In this document: in pieces, positions 989 through 53,941 of the stretch
Position numbering within the stretch: position 1 is the first letter of the stretch
Layout of the letters: each line of letters opens with the position of its first letter
Assembly (NCBI GenBank): GCA_001898385.1
Contig: MKTT01000087.1
Span: 1-64,000 of the forward strand
DNA: 64,000 nt
DNA from: Planctomycetales bacterium 71-10
GTDB lineage: Bacteria; Planctomycetota; Planctomycetia; Isosphaerales; Isosphaeraceae
Direction of reading: 5' to 3'
Position numbers and translations under genes: made by a program
The notes under the pieces: generated by a model
The model's input: only the letters and a program-made list of their open reading frames with translations
Database searches by the model: none
Told to the model about the DNA's origin: nothing

Positions 989-2545
989 ATGCGTATCGGC
1001 AACCGGCTCGGCGGAGCGATGTTCGGGCTGGCCGTCGCCCTCTGGGGGACGAGCGCCCGTGCGGAGTCCGCGGAGCGAGTCGCGGCCGTCCCCTTGGGGG
1101 GCTCGCTCGAGGCCAGGGAGGGCGAGCACTATTATGGGGTCTACGTCCCGACCCGGTTCGGGGGCGAGCTGACCATCAAGTCGAGCGAAGGTAAGGTGGA
1201 GGAGATCAAGGGCCCCGACGGGGCGGCCCGGACGAACGGCCAGGAGGTGGGCGAGGACAAGCAGGGCTGGTACACCTTCAAGGTGACGGGGGCCAAGAAG
1301 CCCTACAAGGTGGAGACGCGGTTCGTCCAGTCGGGCCAGAGCGCCAAGAGGCCCTGGAACTTCTACTACTGGCCGACGAAGGCGGACTCGCTGCACGAGC
1401 CCTGGGCCGGCGGCAACGGCCGGGTGGACAGCTACGACCTGAAGGGCGACGACGTCCGGGTCGTGGCCCCGGGCGGATACATCGCGCCCGGCCAGGACAT
1501 CGTGCTGGCCGGCCGCAACGGCCTGCTGGAGACGATCCCCTCGTCCGGCGACGACGCCACCTGGTTCCCGAACCTGTACGACGACCTCTACTGGCAGGGC
1601 CCCAACAACACGCTGTTCCAGACCCCCTCGCCCCTGCTGAAGTACGACCAGCTCTTCGGGACTTCGGCCCGCGCGTGGGAGGCGGTCAACACCCAGAACA
1701 ACGACATCAGCCGCTGGCCCGGCCACTGCCTCGGCGGCGCCGTGGCCTCGATCGCCTTCAACGACCCGCTCCCGGCCCCGGGGACCGGCATGACCAAGGA
1801 CGAATTGAAGGCGCTGTACGCCGAGCTGGGCGAGAACCACCTCAACCACCGCATCGGCGACTACGCCGCGGACATCCCCGCCGGCCCCCCCCGCCCCGGC
1901 CCGGACGCGACCGACTGGAAGGCCCCGCGCGTCCACGCGATGTTCGAGACCCACATCCGCGGGGAGCGGCAGGCCCTGCTCTCGAACATGAGGGCGTTCC
2001 CCCCCCGCGGCACCGAGGCCGAGGTCTGGAACCAGGCGATCTACAAGTATGTCGCCGAGTACAAGTCGATCCCGGGCCGCGGCCCGCGCGCCGTCCTGAT
2101 CAACATCGACGTCCACGCCAACTCGGGGTCGTCGCTCAACGGCCAGGACGAGAAGGACCGGGTCGCCCATTATGAGTACAGCATCGTCTACGGCCTCGAC
2201 GGCCGGGTCGACGAGACCAACCCCGCCGCGGCCGACTGGATCGCGGTCGGCGGCGAGGCGCTCTTCGCGCCGCTGAACATCCTCCAGGTCATCAATTCCG
2301 CCTGGGCCGGTCACAACCCCTACGTCACGATCGACAACGTCCGTTCGCTCGACCTGGCCAACGGCGGCGCGGCGGTGGCCCGCTTCCAGGGCAAGGCGCC
2401 GGAGTTCCTCCCGGTCGCCCGCTACGAGGCCGGCCGCTCGCTGCCGAACGTCGGCGGGACGATGTTCGCCAGCGGCGCCGACGCCAACTCCGTGCCGGGC
2501 TCGTCGCGCCGCGGCGGCTTCTTCGGGTTCTTCCGGGGGCGCTGA
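989..2545 (+). CDS. Secreted transglutaminase-like (TGase elicitor-type) protein
   Basis: This 518-residue protein has a signal peptide (LGGAMFGLAVALWGTSARA) and starts at an ATG with GGGAGG six bases upstream. The central part carries a Cys in a WPGHCLGG context (Cys247), then INIDVHAN (His376) and a YGLDGRVDETNP segment with Asp near 408. This Cys-His-Asp order and the wording around each residue resemble the transglutaminase elicitor family (PF16683), known from oomycetes and some bacteria. By analogy it may crosslink or cleave proteins outside the cell. The C-terminal tail is Gly/Arg rich (GGFFGFFRGR). Family assignment is from motif memory only; a cysteine peptidase of the same fold is the alternative. 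It is followed by a strong hairpin and appears to be monocistronic. Confidence 0.5.
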   Translation: MRIGNRLGGAMFGLAVALWGTSARAESAERVAAVPLGGSLEAREGEHYYGVYVPTRFGGELTIKSSEGKVEEIKGPDGAARTNGQEVGEDKQGWYTFKVTGAKKPYKVETRFVQSGQSAKRPWNFYYWPTKADSLHEPWAGGNGRVDSYDLKGDDVRVVAPGGYIAPGQDIVLAGRNGLLETIPSSGDDATWFPNLYDDLYWQGPNNTLFQTPSPLLKYDQLFGTSARAWEAVNTQNNDISRWPGHCLGGAVASIAFNDPLPAPGTGMTKDELKALYAELGENHLNHRIGDYAADIPAGPPRPGPDATDWKAPRVHAMFETHIRGERQALLSNMRAFPPRGTEAEVWNQAIYKYVAEYKSIPGRGPRAVLINIDVHANSGSSLNGQDEKDRVAHYEYSIVYGLDGRVDETNPAAADWIAVGGEALFAPLNILQVINSAWAGHNPYVTIDNVRSLDLANGGAAVARFQGKAPEFLPVARYEAGRSLPNVGGTMFASGADANSVPGSSRRGGFFGFFRGR

Positions 2546-2867
2546 TCGCATCGCACGCGAGGCCGACGACCTCCCCGCCCGGCCGGACCTCGCGTCCGGC
2601 CGGGCGGTCGCGTTTCGAACGCCCGGCGTCGCGACCGTCGCGACCGATACCGCCGGCGCGTCGGCAACGGCCCCGGAATCGGACGTCTTTCCCGGCCCGG
2701 CATTTTCGTCACGGCTGTTCAAGTTTCCCGCCGGGGACGCCGATCCTTAGAACCATCGCGAGAGTGGACGACCGGGCCGCATCCCCAGGCGATCGACGGC
2801 GTCGAGCGGCCGCTCCGCGTGTCCTTGAGCAACCCAGCCGGCATCGATTGAATCGGGGGCGACCGTC
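2546..2867. other. Intergenic interval with the terminator hairpin
   Basis: Apart from the hairpin at 2575-2607 I see no gene or recognisable RNA in these 322 bases. The promoter of the following three-gene cluster should lie here, but I cannot place it. Confidence 0.4.
2575..2607 (+). terminator. Perfect 14-bp hairpin after the transglutaminase-like gene
   Basis: CCGCCCGGCCGGAC, a five-base loop CTCGC, then the exact complement, 30 bp after the stop codon. There is no clear T-tract, as is common in very GC-rich genomes. Confidence 0.6.
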
Positions 2868-3302
2868 ATGACTCCACTCCTCGCAACCACGGACGACCCG
2901 ACCGCCCGGTCCGACGGCGGTTTCGAGTGGGGTGCCACCCTGATCCGCGTGCCGGACCTCGGGCCGGTCCGCTCGCGGCCGACGGCCGCGGAGGGATGGG
3001 AGCGGGCCTGGGCCGAGAAGGTCCGGGCCAGGTCGGCGGCGGCCCGCCCCGCTCGGCGACGGTTGCGGCGCGAGTTCCGCGTCGCGGCGTGCCTCTGCCT
3101 GGCGGTCGCCCCGCTGGTCACGGCCGTGGGGGCCTGGGGGCTGGCCCAGCCGAGGCGGGCGGGGGCCGCCGAGGTCTCCGTCGCGCCGGCGATCCGGCTG
3201 TCGATCAAGCCGGTCGAGGCCGAGCCGGAGGCCCGGGTGTTGCTGCCGGGCTACGTCCTTCCCGCCGAGCGTCGCGAGGAGCCGTCCCATGAGGGAAGTT
3301 GA
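2868..3302 (+). CDS. Single-pass membrane protein, first gene of the CpsD/ExeA-like cluster
   Basis: This 144-residue protein has a long basic N-terminal region (many Arg at 45-70), one membrane segment at about residues 72-94 (AACLCLAVAPLVTAVGAWGL) and a short outer tail rich in Pro and Glu. It overlaps the next gene by 14 bases, so the two are probably translationally coupled. I do not recognise the family. Because the next gene is a soluble CpsD-like ATPase, this protein could act as its membrane anchor, as CapA/Wzd-type proteins do for split bacterial tyrosine kinases. That role is inferred from position only. Confidence 0.6.
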   Translation: MTPLLATTDDPTARSDGGFEWGATLIRVPDLGPVRSRPTAAEGWERAWAEKVRARSAAARPARRRLRREFRVAACLCLAVAPLVTAVGAWGLAQPRRAGAAEVSVAPAIRLSIKPVEAEPEARVLLPGYVLPAERREEPSHEGS

Positions 3303-4080
3303 CGAGGCCCTGAGCCGGGCCTTCGCCATCAAGGGGGCGTCCGCGCCGTCCGCCGCCGAGGTCCCCCCCGCGCCCCACCGGCCGCGGAAGGGGTCGCCGG
3401 CGCGGCCGTCTCGCGTGTTCCTGCCGCCGGCCGCGGGGGCCGAGCCCGCGGGCCGGGGCCTGGCCTGGCCGGAGGTCGTCTCCGTGCTCGAAGGCGAGTG
3501 GGGCGATCGGTTCCTCCAGATGGGGGACCGGGTGCTGGAGGCTCGCGAGAAGGCGGGCGTCCGGGTGCTCCTCTTCACGAGCTGCCATCGCGCCGAGGGT
3601 CGGTCGACGCTGGTCCTGACGCTGGCCCGCACGCTGGCCCGCCGGCCGCTGCGGACCCTGATCGTGGACGCCGACCTCACCGGGCCGATGCTCGCGCGGT
3701 CGCTGGGGCTGCGGCCCGAGGTCGGGCTCGACGACGTGGTCGAGGACGGCAAGCCGCTCGACGACGCGATCATCGAGTCGCCGGCCGACAACCTCTGGAT
3801 CCTGCCGATGCGCTCGGCGGTCTCGCGGCCTCGCGACTTCCTGGCCTCCGCCGGCTGGGCCTGCACGATGGCCCGGCTCCGGCGCGAATTCGACCTGGTG
3901 CTGGTCGACGGCAGCCCGCTGTTCACCGGGCTCTCGGCGGCGGTGCTGCACAGCTCGGTCGACGCCGCGGTGCTGGTCCACAGCCGCGACGCGACCGGCG
4001 GGCGCTCGATCCTGCGGGCGCGCGAGGTGTTGGAGGGGGGCGGAGTCCCCCTGCTCGGCCTGGCCGAGACGTTCGCCTGA
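3289..4080 (+). CDS. CpsD/CapB-like P-loop ATPase with altered Walker A
   Basis: This 263-residue protein resembles the cytoplasmic half of bacterial tyrosine kinases and exosortase-locus autokinases that control exopolysaccharide synthesis. A Pro/Arg-rich linker (residues 1-65) leads into a P-loop fold. The Walker A-like loop reads SCHRAEGRSTL, with Arg105 in place of the usual Lys. Walker A' is LIVDADLTGP (Asp127) and Walker B is LVLVDGSP. No C-terminal tyrosine cluster is visible: the protein ends LLGLAETFA, where active kinases carry several Tyr. It may therefore be a regulatory or inactive homologue, or a ParA-like ATPase. It overlaps the upstream membrane-protein gene and lies 18 bases before the ExeA-like gene. 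Confidence 0.65.
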   Translation: MREVDEALSRAFAIKGASAPSAAEVPPAPHRPRKGSPARPSRVFLPPAAGAEPAGRGLAWPEVVSVLEGEWGDRFLQMGDRVLEAREKAGVRVLLFTSCHRAEGRSTLVLTLARTLARRPLRTLIVDADLTGPMLARSLGLRPEVGLDDVVEDGKPLDDAIIESPADNLWILPMRSAVSRPRDFLASAGWACTMARLRREFDLVLVDGSPLFTGLSAAVLHSSVDAAVLVHSRDATGGRSILRAREVLEGGGVPLLGLAETFA

Positions 4081-5068: not shown

Positions 5069-6955
5069 ATGGGACGTTCATCGGGGCCATGCATCCGGAG
5101 ATGGGACGGGGCGATCGTCGGCCTCTGGGCGGTCGGGCTGGCGACGGTCTTCGCGACCGCCCGCGCGCAGGGGACGGACGGCGGCGCGCCCGACGGCGTG
5201 GAGGTCCTGACGCGAGGGCCCGTCCACGAGGCGTTCGCCGTGCCCGTGGTCAACGACCCGAAACCCGGGCTGGTCGCCCCCAAGGCCCCGCCGGATCCGG
5301 TCGAGGAGATGCCCCCCGACCAGAAGCCGGCCGGCCAGGACGTGCGCTGGATCCCCGGCTACTGGAGCTGGGACCAGGCCCGTACGGACTTCGTCTGGGT
5401 CAGCGGCATCTGGCGCGAGCCGCCCCCGGGCCGGCAGTGGGTCCCCGGCTACTGGAACCCGGTCGCGAACGGCGTGCAGTGGATCCCCGGCGCGTGGATC
5501 CCGGTAGGCGGCTCGCCGGGGGCCCTGGACGCGAGCGTGACCGTGGCGCAGGGGGAGGCGGCCTACCTGCCGGAGCCCCCCGCCAGCCTGGAGGCGGGCC
5601 CCAACATCCCCCAGCCCGCCGGCGAGGTCTTCTGGAGCCCCGGCTGCTGGTTCTGGCGGCAGGGCCGATACGCCTGGCGGCCCGGGTTCTGGTCGATCGT
5701 CCAGCCGGCCTGGGTCTGGGTGCCGGCGCATTACGTCTGGACCCCCGGCGGCTGCCTGTTCGTCGAGGGCTACTGGGACCTGCCGCTGGGCGACCGCGGC
5801 ATCCTGTTCGCCCCCGTCTACTACGCGCGGCCGGTCTACCTCCAGCCGACGTACGTCTACACGCCGACGATCACCGTCGCCGCGCCGGGGCTGGTCGCCA
5901 ACCTGTTCGTGCAGCCGTCCTATCATCATTATTGCTTCGGTGATTATTATGATCGGACGTTCCTGACGGCCGGCGTCTTCCCCTGGTTCTCGTTCACCTA
6001 CGTCTCCGGGCCCCGCCCGCCGGCGTACTACGACCCGCTGTTCACCTTCTACGCCTCGGTGAACGTCCGCAGCAACCCGGGGTGGGCGGCGCATTGCCGC
6101 CAGGAATACATCCTCCGGCGCGACAACGTCGCGATGCGTCCGCCGCGCACCTATATCGAGCAGACGCGCATCGTCCAGAACAACATCAACATCACGCGCA
6201 ACACGACGATCATCAACAACAATGGCGGGAGATCCGGCCCCGGCCCGGCCGCTCTGATCGGCCGGCCGATCGAGCAGGTGGCGATGCGACGCCCCGAGGC
6301 GGGCATGCCCCGGCTGGAGCGGATCGACCCGGCGGCGCGGCAGGAATGGCGGGCGCGGTCGCGCGAGATGGCCGACTTCCGGCTCCAGCGAGCCGGGCGC
6401 GAGGTCGAGGCCGCGCCGCGGCCCGGCCCGCAGGCGCAGGCCCGGCCCCGGCCGTTCGCGATGCCGGCTTCTCCCGTGGCCGACCCGCCGGTCGAGCGAG
6501 CCATGGGGCCGATGCGCCGGCCCGAGCACGTCGCCAGGCCCGCGACTGTAGAAGCCCCCCGGCCCATGCCGCGGCACGTCAACCCCGGGATGAACACCCC
6601 GGCCCCGGGCACCGAGCGGCGCGAGGCGCCGATCGCGCGCGGCCCCGCCGCGAGCCTCCCCCGGCATCGCCCCGATCCGGCGGTCGCCGTCCCGCCCCAC
6701 ATCGAGCGGAAGGGGCCGGCCGCGAACGCCGGGCCTCGGCCGGGGGTCGCCCGCTCGCAAGCGTCCCCGCCCTTCGCGCCGCGGCACTTGCGCGAGGGGG
6801 CCTCGCCGGATCCCTCCTCGGGGCGCGGCCCGGTCCCGACGCACGCCGAAGGCCAGCGTCCCGCCGGCCGACGTCCCCCGCCGGCCCCCCGCCCGGCCGG
6901 CCCGGCCGCCCGCCGCGCCGCCGCGGAAGGAACGCGGCCCGGCCCGAATCCCTGA
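5069..6955 (+). CDS. Secreted WXXGXW-repeat protein
   Basis: This 628-residue protein has an N-terminal hydrophobic export signal (IVGLWAVGLATVFATARA). Residues about 85-270 contain repeated W-P-G-Y-W elements (WIPGYWSW, WVSGIW, WVPGYWNP, WIPGAWIP, WSPGCWFW, WRPGFW), matching the WXXGXW/YXWGXW repeat family (PF12779). The middle is Tyr/Phe rich. The last 230 residues are a basic Pro/Arg/Ala-rich tail with a short NNNG patch before it. Homologues are common planctomycete exported proteins of unknown role, likely wall- or matrix-associated. The 3' end runs close to a decayed mobile element, so part of the tail may come from inserted DNA. Confidence 0.65.
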   Translation: MGRSSGPCIRRWDGAIVGLWAVGLATVFATARAQGTDGGAPDGVEVLTRGPVHEAFAVPVVNDPKPGLVAPKAPPDPVEEMPPDQKPAGQDVRWIPGYWSWDQARTDFVWVSGIWREPPPGRQWVPGYWNPVANGVQWIPGAWIPVGGSPGALDASVTVAQGEAAYLPEPPASLEAGPNIPQPAGEVFWSPGCWFWRQGRYAWRPGFWSIVQPAWVWVPAHYVWTPGGCLFVEGYWDLPLGDRGILFAPVYYARPVYLQPTYVYTPTITVAAPGLVANLFVQPSYHHYCFGDYYDRTFLTAGVFPWFSFTYVSGPRPPAYYDPLFTFYASVNVRSNPGWAAHCRQEYILRRDNVAMRPPRTYIEQTRIVQNNINITRNTTIINNNGGRSGPGPAALIGRPIEQVAMRRPEAGMPRLERIDPAARQEWRARSREMADFRLQRAGREVEAAPRPGPQAQARPRPFAMPASPVADPPVERAMGPMRRPEHVARPATVEAPRPMPRHVNPGMNTPAPGTERREAPIARGPAASLPRHRPDPAVAVPPHIERKGPAANAGPRPGVARSQASPPFAPRHLREGASPDPSSGRGPVPTHAEGQRPAGRRPPPAPRPAGPAARRAAAEGTRPGPNP

Positions 6956-6964
6956 TACGATCGG

Positions 6965-7204
6965 CGTCTTCCCCCCTCGCGGGGGAAGACAGACCGCGAA
7001 GCGGTCAGATGAGGGGGACGCGGAGCATGGGGGCCGTCGGGATTCGACGGCCCGCCCGATCGGGCCGGCTCGGGATCCCGACGGCTTTCTCGCTCGTCGT
7101 CCCCCTCATCCGGCCCTTCGGGCCACCTTCCCCCGCGAGGGGGGAAGGCCGTTATTGATGTCCCCCGACTCCGACGCGATTCACCAAAACCCAAAGGATC
7201 CCCT
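6965..7204 (-). mobile_element. Decayed MITE copy (same family as 20872-21153, opposite orientation)
   Basis: The core matches the reverse complement of the element at 20872-21153: the CTTCCCCCCTCGCGGGGGAAG-type palindrome, the AGATGAGGGGGACGC arm, a middle with CCGTCGGGATTCGA, the CTCATCCGGCCCTTCGGGCC arm, and the second palindrome. Beyond that, GATGTCCC...CTCCGACGCGAT and a degenerate terminal repeat (TTCACCAAAACCC...) are still recognisable at the right end. The left terminal repeat is not recognisable and seems to be lost in the 3' end of the upstream gene. Confidence 0.65.
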
Positions 7205-18862: not shown

Positions 18863-20656
<1,794 letters not shown>

Positions 20657-20856: not shown

Positions 20857-20871
20857 CCGGACTTGCCGAGG

Positions 20872-21153
20872 GGGTGTGCCTTCGGAATTTGGCGGATCGC
20901 GTCGGAGGTTGAAGGGACATCATAACGGCCTTCCCCCTGACGGGGGAAGGTGGCCCGAAGGGCCGGATGAGGGGGAAGACGAGCGCGGGGGCCGCCGGAT
21001 CTCGCGCCGGCCCGGACGGGCGGGCCTTCGAATCCCGACGGTGCCCGTGCTTCGCGTCCCCCTCATCTGACCCCTCCGGGGTCTGTCTTCCCCCGCGAGG
21101 GGGGAAGACGTCCATGAACCCGCGACCTTCCGCCAAATTCCGAAGGCACACCC
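20872..21153. mobile_element. MITE-like element with 25-bp perfect terminal inverted repeats
   Basis: Ends GGGTGTGCC...TTTGGCGGA (20872-20896) and its exact complement (21129-21153) enclose 282 bp. Both sides carry the 8-bp direct repeat TGCCGAGG (20864-20871 and 21154-21161), a target duplication. Inside are two palindromes (CTTCCCCC/GGGGGAAG type) and arms GGCCCGAAGGGCC and GGATGAGGG. No coding capacity is seen. The ends share 20 of 25 positions with the right terminal repeat of the IS at 52402-53811, so a related transposase probably moved it. Confidence 0.85.
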
Positions 21154-21289
21154 TGCCGAGGTGGGTCGCCGCGGGCCCCGGGGACGGCCTTGACCGCGCG
21201 CGCCGGCCGCGATAGCGTGCCCCCGCGATCGGTCCCCGCGGGCGGCGGCCCCGCCGATCGCGCGGGCGGACGCCCCGGGGAATGGCGAC

Positions 21290-21814
21290 ATGCGACGGCG
21301 AGCGAACGGACGGGCGACCCTGGCGGCCTTGCTGGCCCTCTCGCCGGGCTGCGCCCTCCCCAGGCCCGCCATGGCCCCCGTCAGCCGCGACTTCGAGTTT
21401 TCGACCGGCCAGGGTGCCCAGACCTTCCCCGCCCCCTCCTCCGCCGTCGCCGTCGCCGTCGCCGAGGCCCTCTCCGACCTGGACATGCGCGACGTCCGCC
21501 CGCTACGGGACGGGGCCGTCCTCCGCTACGAGGCGGTCACCAAGGACGACCGCTCCTGCTCCGCGACCATCCGGTCGCTGGCCGGCTCCTCCACCGCGAC
21601 GGTCCGCGTCGGCTGGTTCGGCGACGAGGCCCTCTCGCGCGCGATCCTCGATCGGGTCGCCGTCCGGCTGGGCGAACGCCCGCCCGAGCCCATCCCCGAC
21701 GAGCCGCCGAGCACGCCGGCGCGCAACCCATTCTTCTCGCGCGACGCCGTGCCCGACTCGGTCATGCTCCGCGATCAGGTGGAGGCCCCGTACAACGACC
21801 GCGTCGTCCCCTGA
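21290..21814 (+). CDS. Lipoprotein, DUF3568-like
   Basis: This 174-residue protein has a lipobox (ALLALSPGC) and should be lipidated. After the Cys comes a small alpha/beta domain with AVAVAEALSDLDMRDV, then VTKDDRSCSATIRSL and an ILDRVAVRLGE helix. This pattern fits the DUF3568 family of short lipoproteins: a helix with an L-x-x-L-x-M turn, then a beta hairpin. The tail is Pro rich. The function of the family is unknown. It stands alone between the MITE and a gene-free stretch. Confidence 0.6.
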   Translation: MRRRANGRATLAALLALSPGCALPRPAMAPVSRDFEFSTGQGAQTFPAPSSAVAVAVAEALSDLDMRDVRPLRDGAVLRYEAVTKDDRSCSATIRSLAGSSTATVRVGWFGDEALSRAILDRVAVRLGERPPEPIPDEPPSTPARNPFFSRDAVPDSVMLRDQVEAPYNDRVVP

Positions 21815-52265: not shown

Positions 52266-52428
52266 CCCCCTGCCCCTCTCAACCCGTGGGATCGGTCGGA
52301 CGTGACGTCGGAGGCCGCCTTCGCAGGGGGCCGCCCCCGTTCTACGGCATCCGCGGCCCGCGTTCGAGGGCGTGCCGGCCGCCCGGCCCGCGCCCGCGGC
52401 CGGGTGCCCCTTTAGAACTTGGCAGTTG

Positions 52429-53517
52429 TCAAGCGGCCCAGAGGTGATGCCACTCGGGTTGGTCGGCGAGGGCGACGAGCTCGACGAGGGGGCCGACGTG
52501 TTCCACACGCCAGCGGGCTCCGGTCCGTTTCATTCGGCGGTTGACCAGCTGCTTGATCGCCCCTTCGACCATGCCACTGCCGATCGAGCGGCCTCGGGAG
52601 AGTCGGGCGGCGTAGTCGAGGCGGGTCGGGTGCGACGCCAGATAGGCCGACAGTCCGCGCAGCGGTTCGCCGTCGGAGCCCTCGGGCAGCTCGGCGAACA
52701 GGCCGGCGATCCAGCGGTCGAGGCCGCGCTTCCCCGCGGCCGGCAGGACGGCGACGCCCGCCTCGCGATGCGTCGCCGCGGCGGCCGGGTCGGCCCAGGT
52801 CGCCTTGATCGCGCCGCCTATGTGCTCGACGGCGTGGAAGACGTCGAGCACGCCTTCGGCCTGCGGCAGGACCTCGTCGGCGAGGTTCCAGATCCATTCG
52901 GTGCCATCGCCGAGCACGGTCGCGTCGGCGATGGTCGTCGCCTCCAGGCGGTCGGCCTCGCGGCGGACCCGCTTCGCGAACTCCTCGGCCTCCTCGACGG
53001 CCGCGACCACCGCGTGGAACGAGGGCTCGGGGAGCTCGCGATCGGCCCACTCCTCGACCGGCGTCGGCCCGCCGGATTCGCGGCGGGCGAGGATCGCGAC
53101 CTTGACGTCGCGCCAGCCGCCGGTGGTCGGGACCTTGCCGGCGTCGACCTCCAACTCGACGGCCCCGGCCGCCACGGCGAACCGGCCGGCGTCGCGACGC
53201 GACGGGCGGGCCTCGGCGGCGCGACGGGCCGCGGCGTGGGTCGCGCGGCGGATCACGTCGTCGTCGGGGGCCCAGCCGAGCATTTCGCCCATCAGCCGCT
53301 GGGCCCGCGCGAACGAGTCGTGGACGCCGGCCAGGACGGCCATCCGCTCGCCGCCGGGGCTCAGCAGGCCCGTCACGCCGAGCGCCTCGTCGGCCGGGAA
53401 CGAGCCGCCGCCGGCGGTCGCGACGTAGGCCCGCTCCAGCCGGATCGGCCCGGCGGCCGTCAGGAGCCGCCGCGACCGCCGCCCCTTCGACCTGGCCCCG
53501 GCCGGCCGTTTTGGGGG
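52429..53517 (-). CDS. ISKra4-like transposase, catalytic frame
   Basis: This is the -1 frame continuing the N-terminal ORF, about 362 residues to the stop at 52429. The DDE-type acidic residues are in ELEVDAGKVPTTGGWRDVKV, VLGDGTEWIWNL and GSGMVEGAIKQL. VLDVFHAVEHIGGAIKATWA and NRRMKRTGARW are typical of the ISKra4 family. It has no start codon of its own; the frame runs open far upstream into the sigma/kinase genes only as a shadow. Together the two frames would give about 434 residues, close to normal. Confidence 0.8.
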   Translation of the reverse strand, partial: PPKRPAGARSKGRRSRRLLTAAGPIRLERAYVATAGGGSFPADEALGVTGLLSPGGERMAVLAGVHDSFARAQRLMGEMLGWAPDDDVIRRATHAAARRAAEARPSRRDAGRFAVAAGAVELEVDAGKVPTTGGWRDVKVAILARRESGGPTPVEEWADRELPEPSFHAVVAAVEEAEEFAKRVRREADRLEATTIADATVLGDGTEWIWNLADEVLPQAEGVLDVFHAVEHIGGAIKATWADPAAAATHREAGVAVLPAAGKRGLDRWIAGLFAELPEGSDGEPLRGLSAYLASHPTRLDYAARLSRGRSIGSGMVEGAIKQLVNRRMKRTGARWRVEHVGPLVELVALADQPEWHHLWAA

Positions 53518-53732
53518 GCGTCGACCTCGGCGACGCGACGCCGCAAGGCCTCCTCCAACGCCGAAGCGGTCAGCTTCCGCCCCTTCGCCACGGCCTCGGC
53601 CTCGCACGCCGCCAGGACCGTCCCGTGCGGGGCCTCCAACGCCGTCCGCTTCAGGTCCGAGACCATCGCCAACGCCTGCTCGATCAGCAGCCGTTCCGAC
53701 TCGTCCTCGTACTCGATCGTCAGTGTTGGCAT
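53460..53732 (-). CDS. ISKra4-like transposase, N-terminal frame
   Basis: This 90-residue ORF has an ATG 55 bases inside the IS right end. MPTLTIEYEDESERL and LEAPHGTVLAACE are typical starts of ISKra4-family transposases, which normally continue in one reading frame to about 450 residues. Here the frame closes at 53460 and the rest lies in the -1 frame. The overlap contains a C6A4 run (53518-53509). Either a programmed -1 shift makes the full protein or the copy carries a frameshift mutation. Confidence 0.75.
   Translation of the reverse strand: MPTLTIEYEDESERLLIEQALAMVSDLKRTALEAPHGTVLAACEAEAVAKGRKLTASALEEALRRRVAEVDAPQNGRPGPGRRGGGRGGS
53509..53518 (-). promoter_or_regulatory. C6A4 run at the transposase frame junction
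   Basis: On the minus strand CCCCCCAAAA lies where the two transposase frames overlap (53460-53518). A -1 step here joins them. A Pro codon in the C run can slip without mismatch; the AAA part is less clear as a classical slippery heptamer. Confidence 0.45.
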
Positions 53733-53941
53733 GGCGGCCCCTCCCTGTTGCGAACGACGGCGACTCCTTCGCCATCATCCCGCAATCCCGCCAAATTCTA
53801 AAGGGGCACCCCCGCGGCCGGACGGCTTGCCAACGGCGACGGCCGCCGGTTAGCCTGGGGTGGTCCCGCGCCGTGTCGAGGCGGCGAGCAGGATTCGGGA
53901 CGGATGCCGGGCGACGGCCCGGCTGGCTCAGGAGGCGAAAC

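Follow-up and report, generated by a model that had tools for sequence, protein, structure and literature searches.

A REP-like dimer enclosed by ISKra4-type MITE ends and by a second, unrelated end type in a Paludisphaera-like planctomycete

What is the short element with inverted ends that lies upstream of rpsA in this planctomycete, what would move it, and what does it carry? The window, the whole stretch of 64,000 nucleotides analysed here, belongs to contig C87 of a Paludisphaera-like host whose assembly comprises 7.73 Mb in 158 contigs. Sequence comparison placed the element at 20872-21153 (282 bp, no strand assigned). The left terminal inverted repeat, GGGTGTGCCTTCGGAATTTGGCGGA (20872-20896, plus strand), agreed with the reverse complement of the right one (21129-21153, minus strand) at 25 of 25 positions, and TGCCGAGG occurred on both sides, at 20864-20871 and 21154-21161, as an 8-bp target duplication. 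The earlier note had described perfect 25-bp ends, an 8-bp duplication and a location upstream of rpsA, and we confirmed all three. The rpsA gene (18863-20656, minus strand), assigned to ribosomal protein S1 by eye from its S1-type sequence, has its ATG at 20656, 215 bp from the element. On the other side, a divergent 174-aa frame with a lipoprotein-like start (21290-21814, plus strand) begins 136 bp away. The element folds strongly, with a z of −11 as single-stranded DNA.

Copy counts were based on pattern searches and on ∼1.42 Mb of the host genome sequence. A 24-bp end with ≤3 mismatches matched 59 places in the genome, as compared with 0 in a reversed control. Counted as MITE ends at ≤3 mismatches, the host genome held 104 (own reversed control, 0) and five congeners held 0, 0, 1, 1 and 2. 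Accepting ≤6 mismatches per end, we identified 46 distinct copies with two consistent ends in the sampled sequence, ranging from 251 to 297 bp. Exact duplications peaked sharply at 8 bp, where they were present in 30% of these copies, against 0-2% at lengths of 3-7, 9 and 10. In exact register, duplications of at least 7/8 flanked 24 of the 46 copies, as opposed to 0.7% for mismatched flanks; the other 22 lacked a clear one. The match of the ends is therefore not due to chance, given the 59 places versus none in the reversed control and the 24 of 46 versus 0.7%.

The rpsA region was present in all five congeners, at 86-87% over the query. In four of these, forward alignments spanning the site showed that the flanks are continuous across the position upstream of rpsA, with no insert. 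In the fifth, G002, the locus has the reverse orientation, and its alignment does not include the site; absence of the insert there rests on the finding of 0 MITE ends in that genome. Further copies, 8-bp flanks and empty sites in relatives were the checks proposed in the earlier note, and each favoured mobility. Overall, these data demonstrate that the 282-bp element is a real mobile element that multiplied recently and, among the genomes compared, in this species only. It has the defining features of a MITE: terminal inverted repeats, a fixed 8-bp duplication, multiple copies, short length, no transposase and insert-free relatives.

The copy at rpsA belongs to the least diverged subfamily and shares 96% identity with copies from contigs C61 and C99. 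At the insertion point, relatives have, towards rpsA, a TTGTCA-18-TAGTAT-like sequence and, away from it, TTGACC...GATAGCGT. By eye, these conserved flanking sequences look like promoters, and the MITE lies between rather than inside them. The window contains a second, decayed copy of the MITE and core at 6950-7204 (minus strand), with one recognizable end at 7180-7204. Elsewhere in the host, a copy at L246 (G000:C83:44000-48500, positions 2177-3706) is situated between AhpD-like and peroxiredoxin-like frames and is flanked by the 8-bp duplication GATGGGTG. Its core is interrupted by a ∼1.2-kb insert with a transposase frame that is IS110-like by eye, a case of insertion of an IS into a REP-like hairpin unit. 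In congener G005, two ISKra4-type left ends occur beside core hairpins (L259, 1234-1440; L260, 981-1126); given these ends, the ISKra4-type wrapper may predate its multiplication in the present species.

Sequence and a transposase profile identified an ISKra4-like IS of 1410 bp in the window (52402-53811, minus strand), the sole full ISKra4 element in the assembly. Its ends are GGGTGCCCCTTTAGAACTTGGC and GGGTGCCCCTTTAGAATTTGGCGGG, and the 8/8 duplication ccgcggcc (CCGCGGCC) is found at 52394-52401 and 53812-53819. The main open frame (52429-53532, minus strand) matched the ISKra4-type profile NF033572 at profile positions 56-412 of 422, with an E-value of 1.8e-56 and 192 bits (curated cutoff, 205), a score obtained for this frame alone. 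The remaining N-terminal part of the transposase would fall in a second, upstream frame of 90 aa (53460-53732, minus strand) that overlaps the first. The overlap lies around GCCCCCCAAAACGG on the minus strand, and the two frames are possibly a pair joined by programmed frameshifting. The GGG ends of this IS and its 8-bp duplication fit one subgroup of the ISKra4 family. A remnant of a further ISKra4-type element was observed at G000:C9:4979-5202, comprising ∼246 bp from one end at 76% identity; the end sequence is GGGTGCACCTTTAGAATTTGGCGG.

The MITE end agreed with the right end of the window IS at 20 of 25 positions and with its left end at 18 of 25; the next-best match in the window outside the MITE and the IS was 17 of 25. 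The 20/25 match and the occurrence of 8-bp duplications at both insertions, TGCCGAGG and ccgcggcc, bear out what the earlier note had reported. A sister IS in Paludisphaera soli JC670 (G004:C2), whose transposase has 84% aa identity to that of the window IS and which also has an 8/8 duplication, fitted the MITE better: its ends agreed at 22/25 and 19/25, and the outer 11 bases were identical at both ends. Genome G004 was assigned to P. soli JC670 through loci common to the two. No autonomous partner with exactly matching ends was found, these two being the best. The assignment to the family is therefore sound and the particular partner copy uncertain. There is good support for an ISKra4-type transposase as the driver, and this driver is probably not the exact window copy; the sole ISKra4 transposase in the assembly, whose IS differs from the MITE ends at 5 of 25 positions, is a candidate active partner only. 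The earlier proposal of a non-autonomous element moved by this IS family thus stands on the copies, ends, 8-bp duplications, insert-free congeners and NF033572 match, but the window IS yields to its P. soli sister as the best-matching partner.

The MITE lacks a transposase and has only its ends in common with these elements. Inside the ends, no significant similarity was detected to the window IS or to the P. soli IS, which makes the MITE an unlikely deletion derivative of either. It looks like a pair of ends with foreign cargo. This interior, on which the earlier note is silent, is the unusual part of the element. According to sequence comparison and folding, this cargo includes a REP-like dimer core of ∼178 bp (20930-21107, no strand assigned), in which two inverted units surround a variable spacer. 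Each unit combines two hairpins, the first being CTTCCCCC/GGGGGAAG, and has GGATGAGGGGG or a similar sequence after the second. When the MITE was used as a query in 59 genomes, its interior (approximately positions 47-244) was found in congeners without ISKra4-type ends. In 1.25 Mb of host sequence we counted 45 strong copies of the core, of which 18 had both ISKra4-type ends, 4 had one and 23 had none.

Cores without ends could be old MITEs whose ends have decayed, in which case the element would be an ordinary ISKra4 derivative with a filler interior. Consistent with this explanation, some copies without recognized ends still show traces of the MITE spacer (C50:152091) or of a single end, and ends drift, up to 6 mismatches having been accepted. 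The dissimilar interior speaks against it, however, as does the scarcity of ISKra4-type ends (0-2) in core-bearing congeners. Moreover, the core is genus-wide and occurs with a different end type, one with A/T-rich targets and duplications of its own. We consider this explanation improbable, the second end type having largely refuted it.

The second end type, CTGACCGTC..., is unrelated to the ISKra4-type ends and encloses the same core in the same genome. It was first recognized in the clearest examples, and a pattern search then served as the test. The pattern CTGACCGTCNCGGATTNTGGGGG occurred 45 times in the host genome, 13 times in G002, 0-4 times in others and ≤1 time in controls. Because contigs break inside elements of this type, both its count and its structure are incomplete. 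The two end types differ in target preference: the outer 8 bp are 65% A/T for the second type and 21% for the ISKra4 type, the window being 29% A/T. The core hairpin starts 36-42 bp inside most second-type ends. Duplications of 8/8 were found at L374, at C76:146439, where the core has CCGGCCGTCCCGGATTCGGGGGC ends and GAACGAAG is duplicated, and at C103:72105-72358 if the boundary is shifted by one base. Many second-type ends are located at contig ends in near-identical sequence, which fits a recent multiplication beyond the resolution of the assembler.

One second-type end, CTGACCGTCCCGGATTTTGGGGC, opens a partial element in the host genome with a 254-aa frame for an IS4-family transposase. 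This frame matched NF033591 with an E-value of 3.3e-24 and, as a partial copy, scored 85.6 bits, the cutoff being 152. A second end of the partial IS4-type element was not found. An IS4-family transposase is a candidate driver of the second end type. Two second-type elements, at L369 (1606-2039, 434 bp) and L370 (1318-1458, 141 bp), carry other palindromes, of the CTTCTCCC and CCCTCTCCC types, in place of the MITE core; cargo therefore varies within this end type. In a further core, C74:62075, the ends are GAGTCTGTTCCAGAAGG and TGA lies outside each of them, an arrangement known from some IS5-type elements. Around cores without ISKra4-type ends, a general search for inverted repeats in the flanks gave a slight excess only, 5 of 52 exceeding the 95% level. 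An automatic test of all cores for ends and duplications suffered from noise, since G+C-rich flanks give high scores to wrong registers too.

We then compared core lineage with end type. On a tree of 78 cores, end type changed 29 times, as compared with a shuffled mean of 29.6, and the nearest-neighbour core had the same end type in 35 of 77 cases (shuffled, 32.9). Mean spacer identity was 0.74 within the ISKra4 type and 0.72 between types. There is thus no detectable association of core lineage with end type, which falls short of proof of exchange. Because the core tree is poorly resolved, with 1 starred branch, this absence of association carries less weight than it seems to. Gene conversion between cores could give the same pattern as exchange.

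Because the same core occurs in two end types and shows no association with either, we infer that it is a passenger. Our preferred reading, to which we assign a probability of roughly 0.8, is a MITE with ends recognized by ISKra4-type transposases and a REP-like passenger core that spreads by means of different transposase ends. An ISKra4-family transposase would recognize the 24-25-bp MITE ends in trans and catalyze a staggered 8-bp insertion, and the palindromic dimer would ride between the ends as cargo. The core would spread whenever it is placed between different sets of transposase ends, and might reach new ends by recombination or template switching at its hairpins. More tentatively, and at somewhat less than even odds, transposase-less REP dimers with half-units common to several phyla may persist in general by switching between the ends of unrelated transposases, of the ISKra4, IS4 and possibly IS5 types.

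The outward-facing palindromes also recall REPINs, the inverted REP doublets that are moved as miniature mobile DNA by RAYTs (PMC3116915). Were the core a REPIN moved by a RAYT, a Y1 tyrosine transposase, the MITE ends would be incidental target palindromes. Y1_Tnp matches were indeed present in five of six genomes, and the 2013 REP survey describes REP dimers inside palindromes as insertions into palindromic targets (PMC3733652). By contrast, G002 has the core and no Y1_Tnp match, and a core-type hairpin was found near 0 of 14 Y1_Tnp loci. In addition, the 8-bp duplications bound the palindrome around the core, where a mere target would have none, and 0 of 59 ISKra4-type two-ended elements lack a core-type hairpin. 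In contrast to REPINs, the present ends with their 8-bp duplications are like those of DDE transposases. A RAYT association was not supported, and movement by a RAYT is very improbable. A transposase of the core's own was likewise not found among the Y1_Tnp loci of the six genomes.

The hairpins were nearly invariant across 64 core copies, while the spacer varied to ∼72% identity. In the right unit, the second hairpin showed paired changes at 152/161 (C-G in 49 copies, G-C in 15) and 153/160 (C-G in 35, G-C in 29), with 0 broken pairs. The core hairpin is thus maintained, with either selection or template switching as the cause. Both the invariant stems and the double compensatory changes would be expected if the hairpins were kept for a host function, as a terminator or protein-binding site for example, with mobility secondary. 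Nevertheless, compensatory changes in quasi-palindromes can arise by template switching without selection, and the species-specific multiplication together with the 8-bp duplications means that transposition is needed. Host function as the primary explanation is therefore unlikely, although less so than either alternative above, and the passenger reading is retained.

A 30-base half-unit, GGAAGGTGGCCCGNAGGGCCGGATGAGGGG, occurred letter for letter in Planctomycetota (Paludisphaera soli), Bacillota and Alphaproteobacteria among the matches listed (L261-L334). The Bacillota carriers among these matches included many Clostridia, of the Oscillospiraceae and Lachnospiraceae. In places, the half-unit forms a similar inverted pair. 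A comparison with Rfam gave nothing near gathering scores, and we found no mention of the unit sequence in the open-access literature.

Among described repeats, the core can be compared with CGTC-type REPs, as presented in the survey of Di Nocera et al. (2013; PMC3733652). Judged by eye, it appears to fit their CGTC tag, 8-9-bp stem opening with A/T pairs, 4-5-base loop and outward-facing dimers. In both cases, short C/G-rich hairpins form an outward-facing pair with CGTC or CGGC beside the stem and TT/AA at its base, and there is no dedicated transposase. The core unit differs by an additional hairpin and by a tail similar to GGATGAGGGGG, and the palindromes that surround it are the ends of MITEs flanked by duplications. 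In its results text, the survey lists CGTC repeats in five phyla, with Planctomycetota absent from that list, and notes REP dimers inside palindromes in other bacteria (PMC3733652). By analogy, those palindromes may be MITE ends.

The intrastrand-triplex (TM/PIT) motif of E. coli, reported without association to mobile elements (Holder et al., 2015; PMC4666352), has a similar layout: a pyrimidine/purine hairpin, then a second loop and, beyond it, a stretch of purines. These repeats are also intergenic and widespread. Their E. coli consensus, CCCTCNCCCN3-6GGGNGAGGGN3GGGNGAGGG, was not matched by the core unit CTTCCCCC...GGGGGAAGG...GGATGAGGGGG, and the second loop differs, being a hairpin loop in the core.

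MITEs and REPs are usually handled as separate classes of bacterial repeat, and here one REP-like dimer is found in two unrelated MITE end types, one of which multiplied in this species only. The MITE itself is of a known type; what is new is that a REP dimer without a transposase lies in MITE ends that are interchangeable. This arrangement suggests a route by which palindromic repeats without their own transposase can spread. If end switching were true, it would answer how CGTC-type REPs without a dedicated transposase move. In the 2013 survey, mobilization of these REPs by a broad spectrum of transposases was raised as a possibility and left open (PMC3733652), and the Paludisphaera-like genus provides a directly testable case.

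Finally, several cores in the host genome (L159, L176, L188 and L256) form a further group that lies between imperfect inverted repeats, and within these repeats CCTTCTCCC-type sequence is found together with a GGTGCTGCGTCGAAAACA motif.
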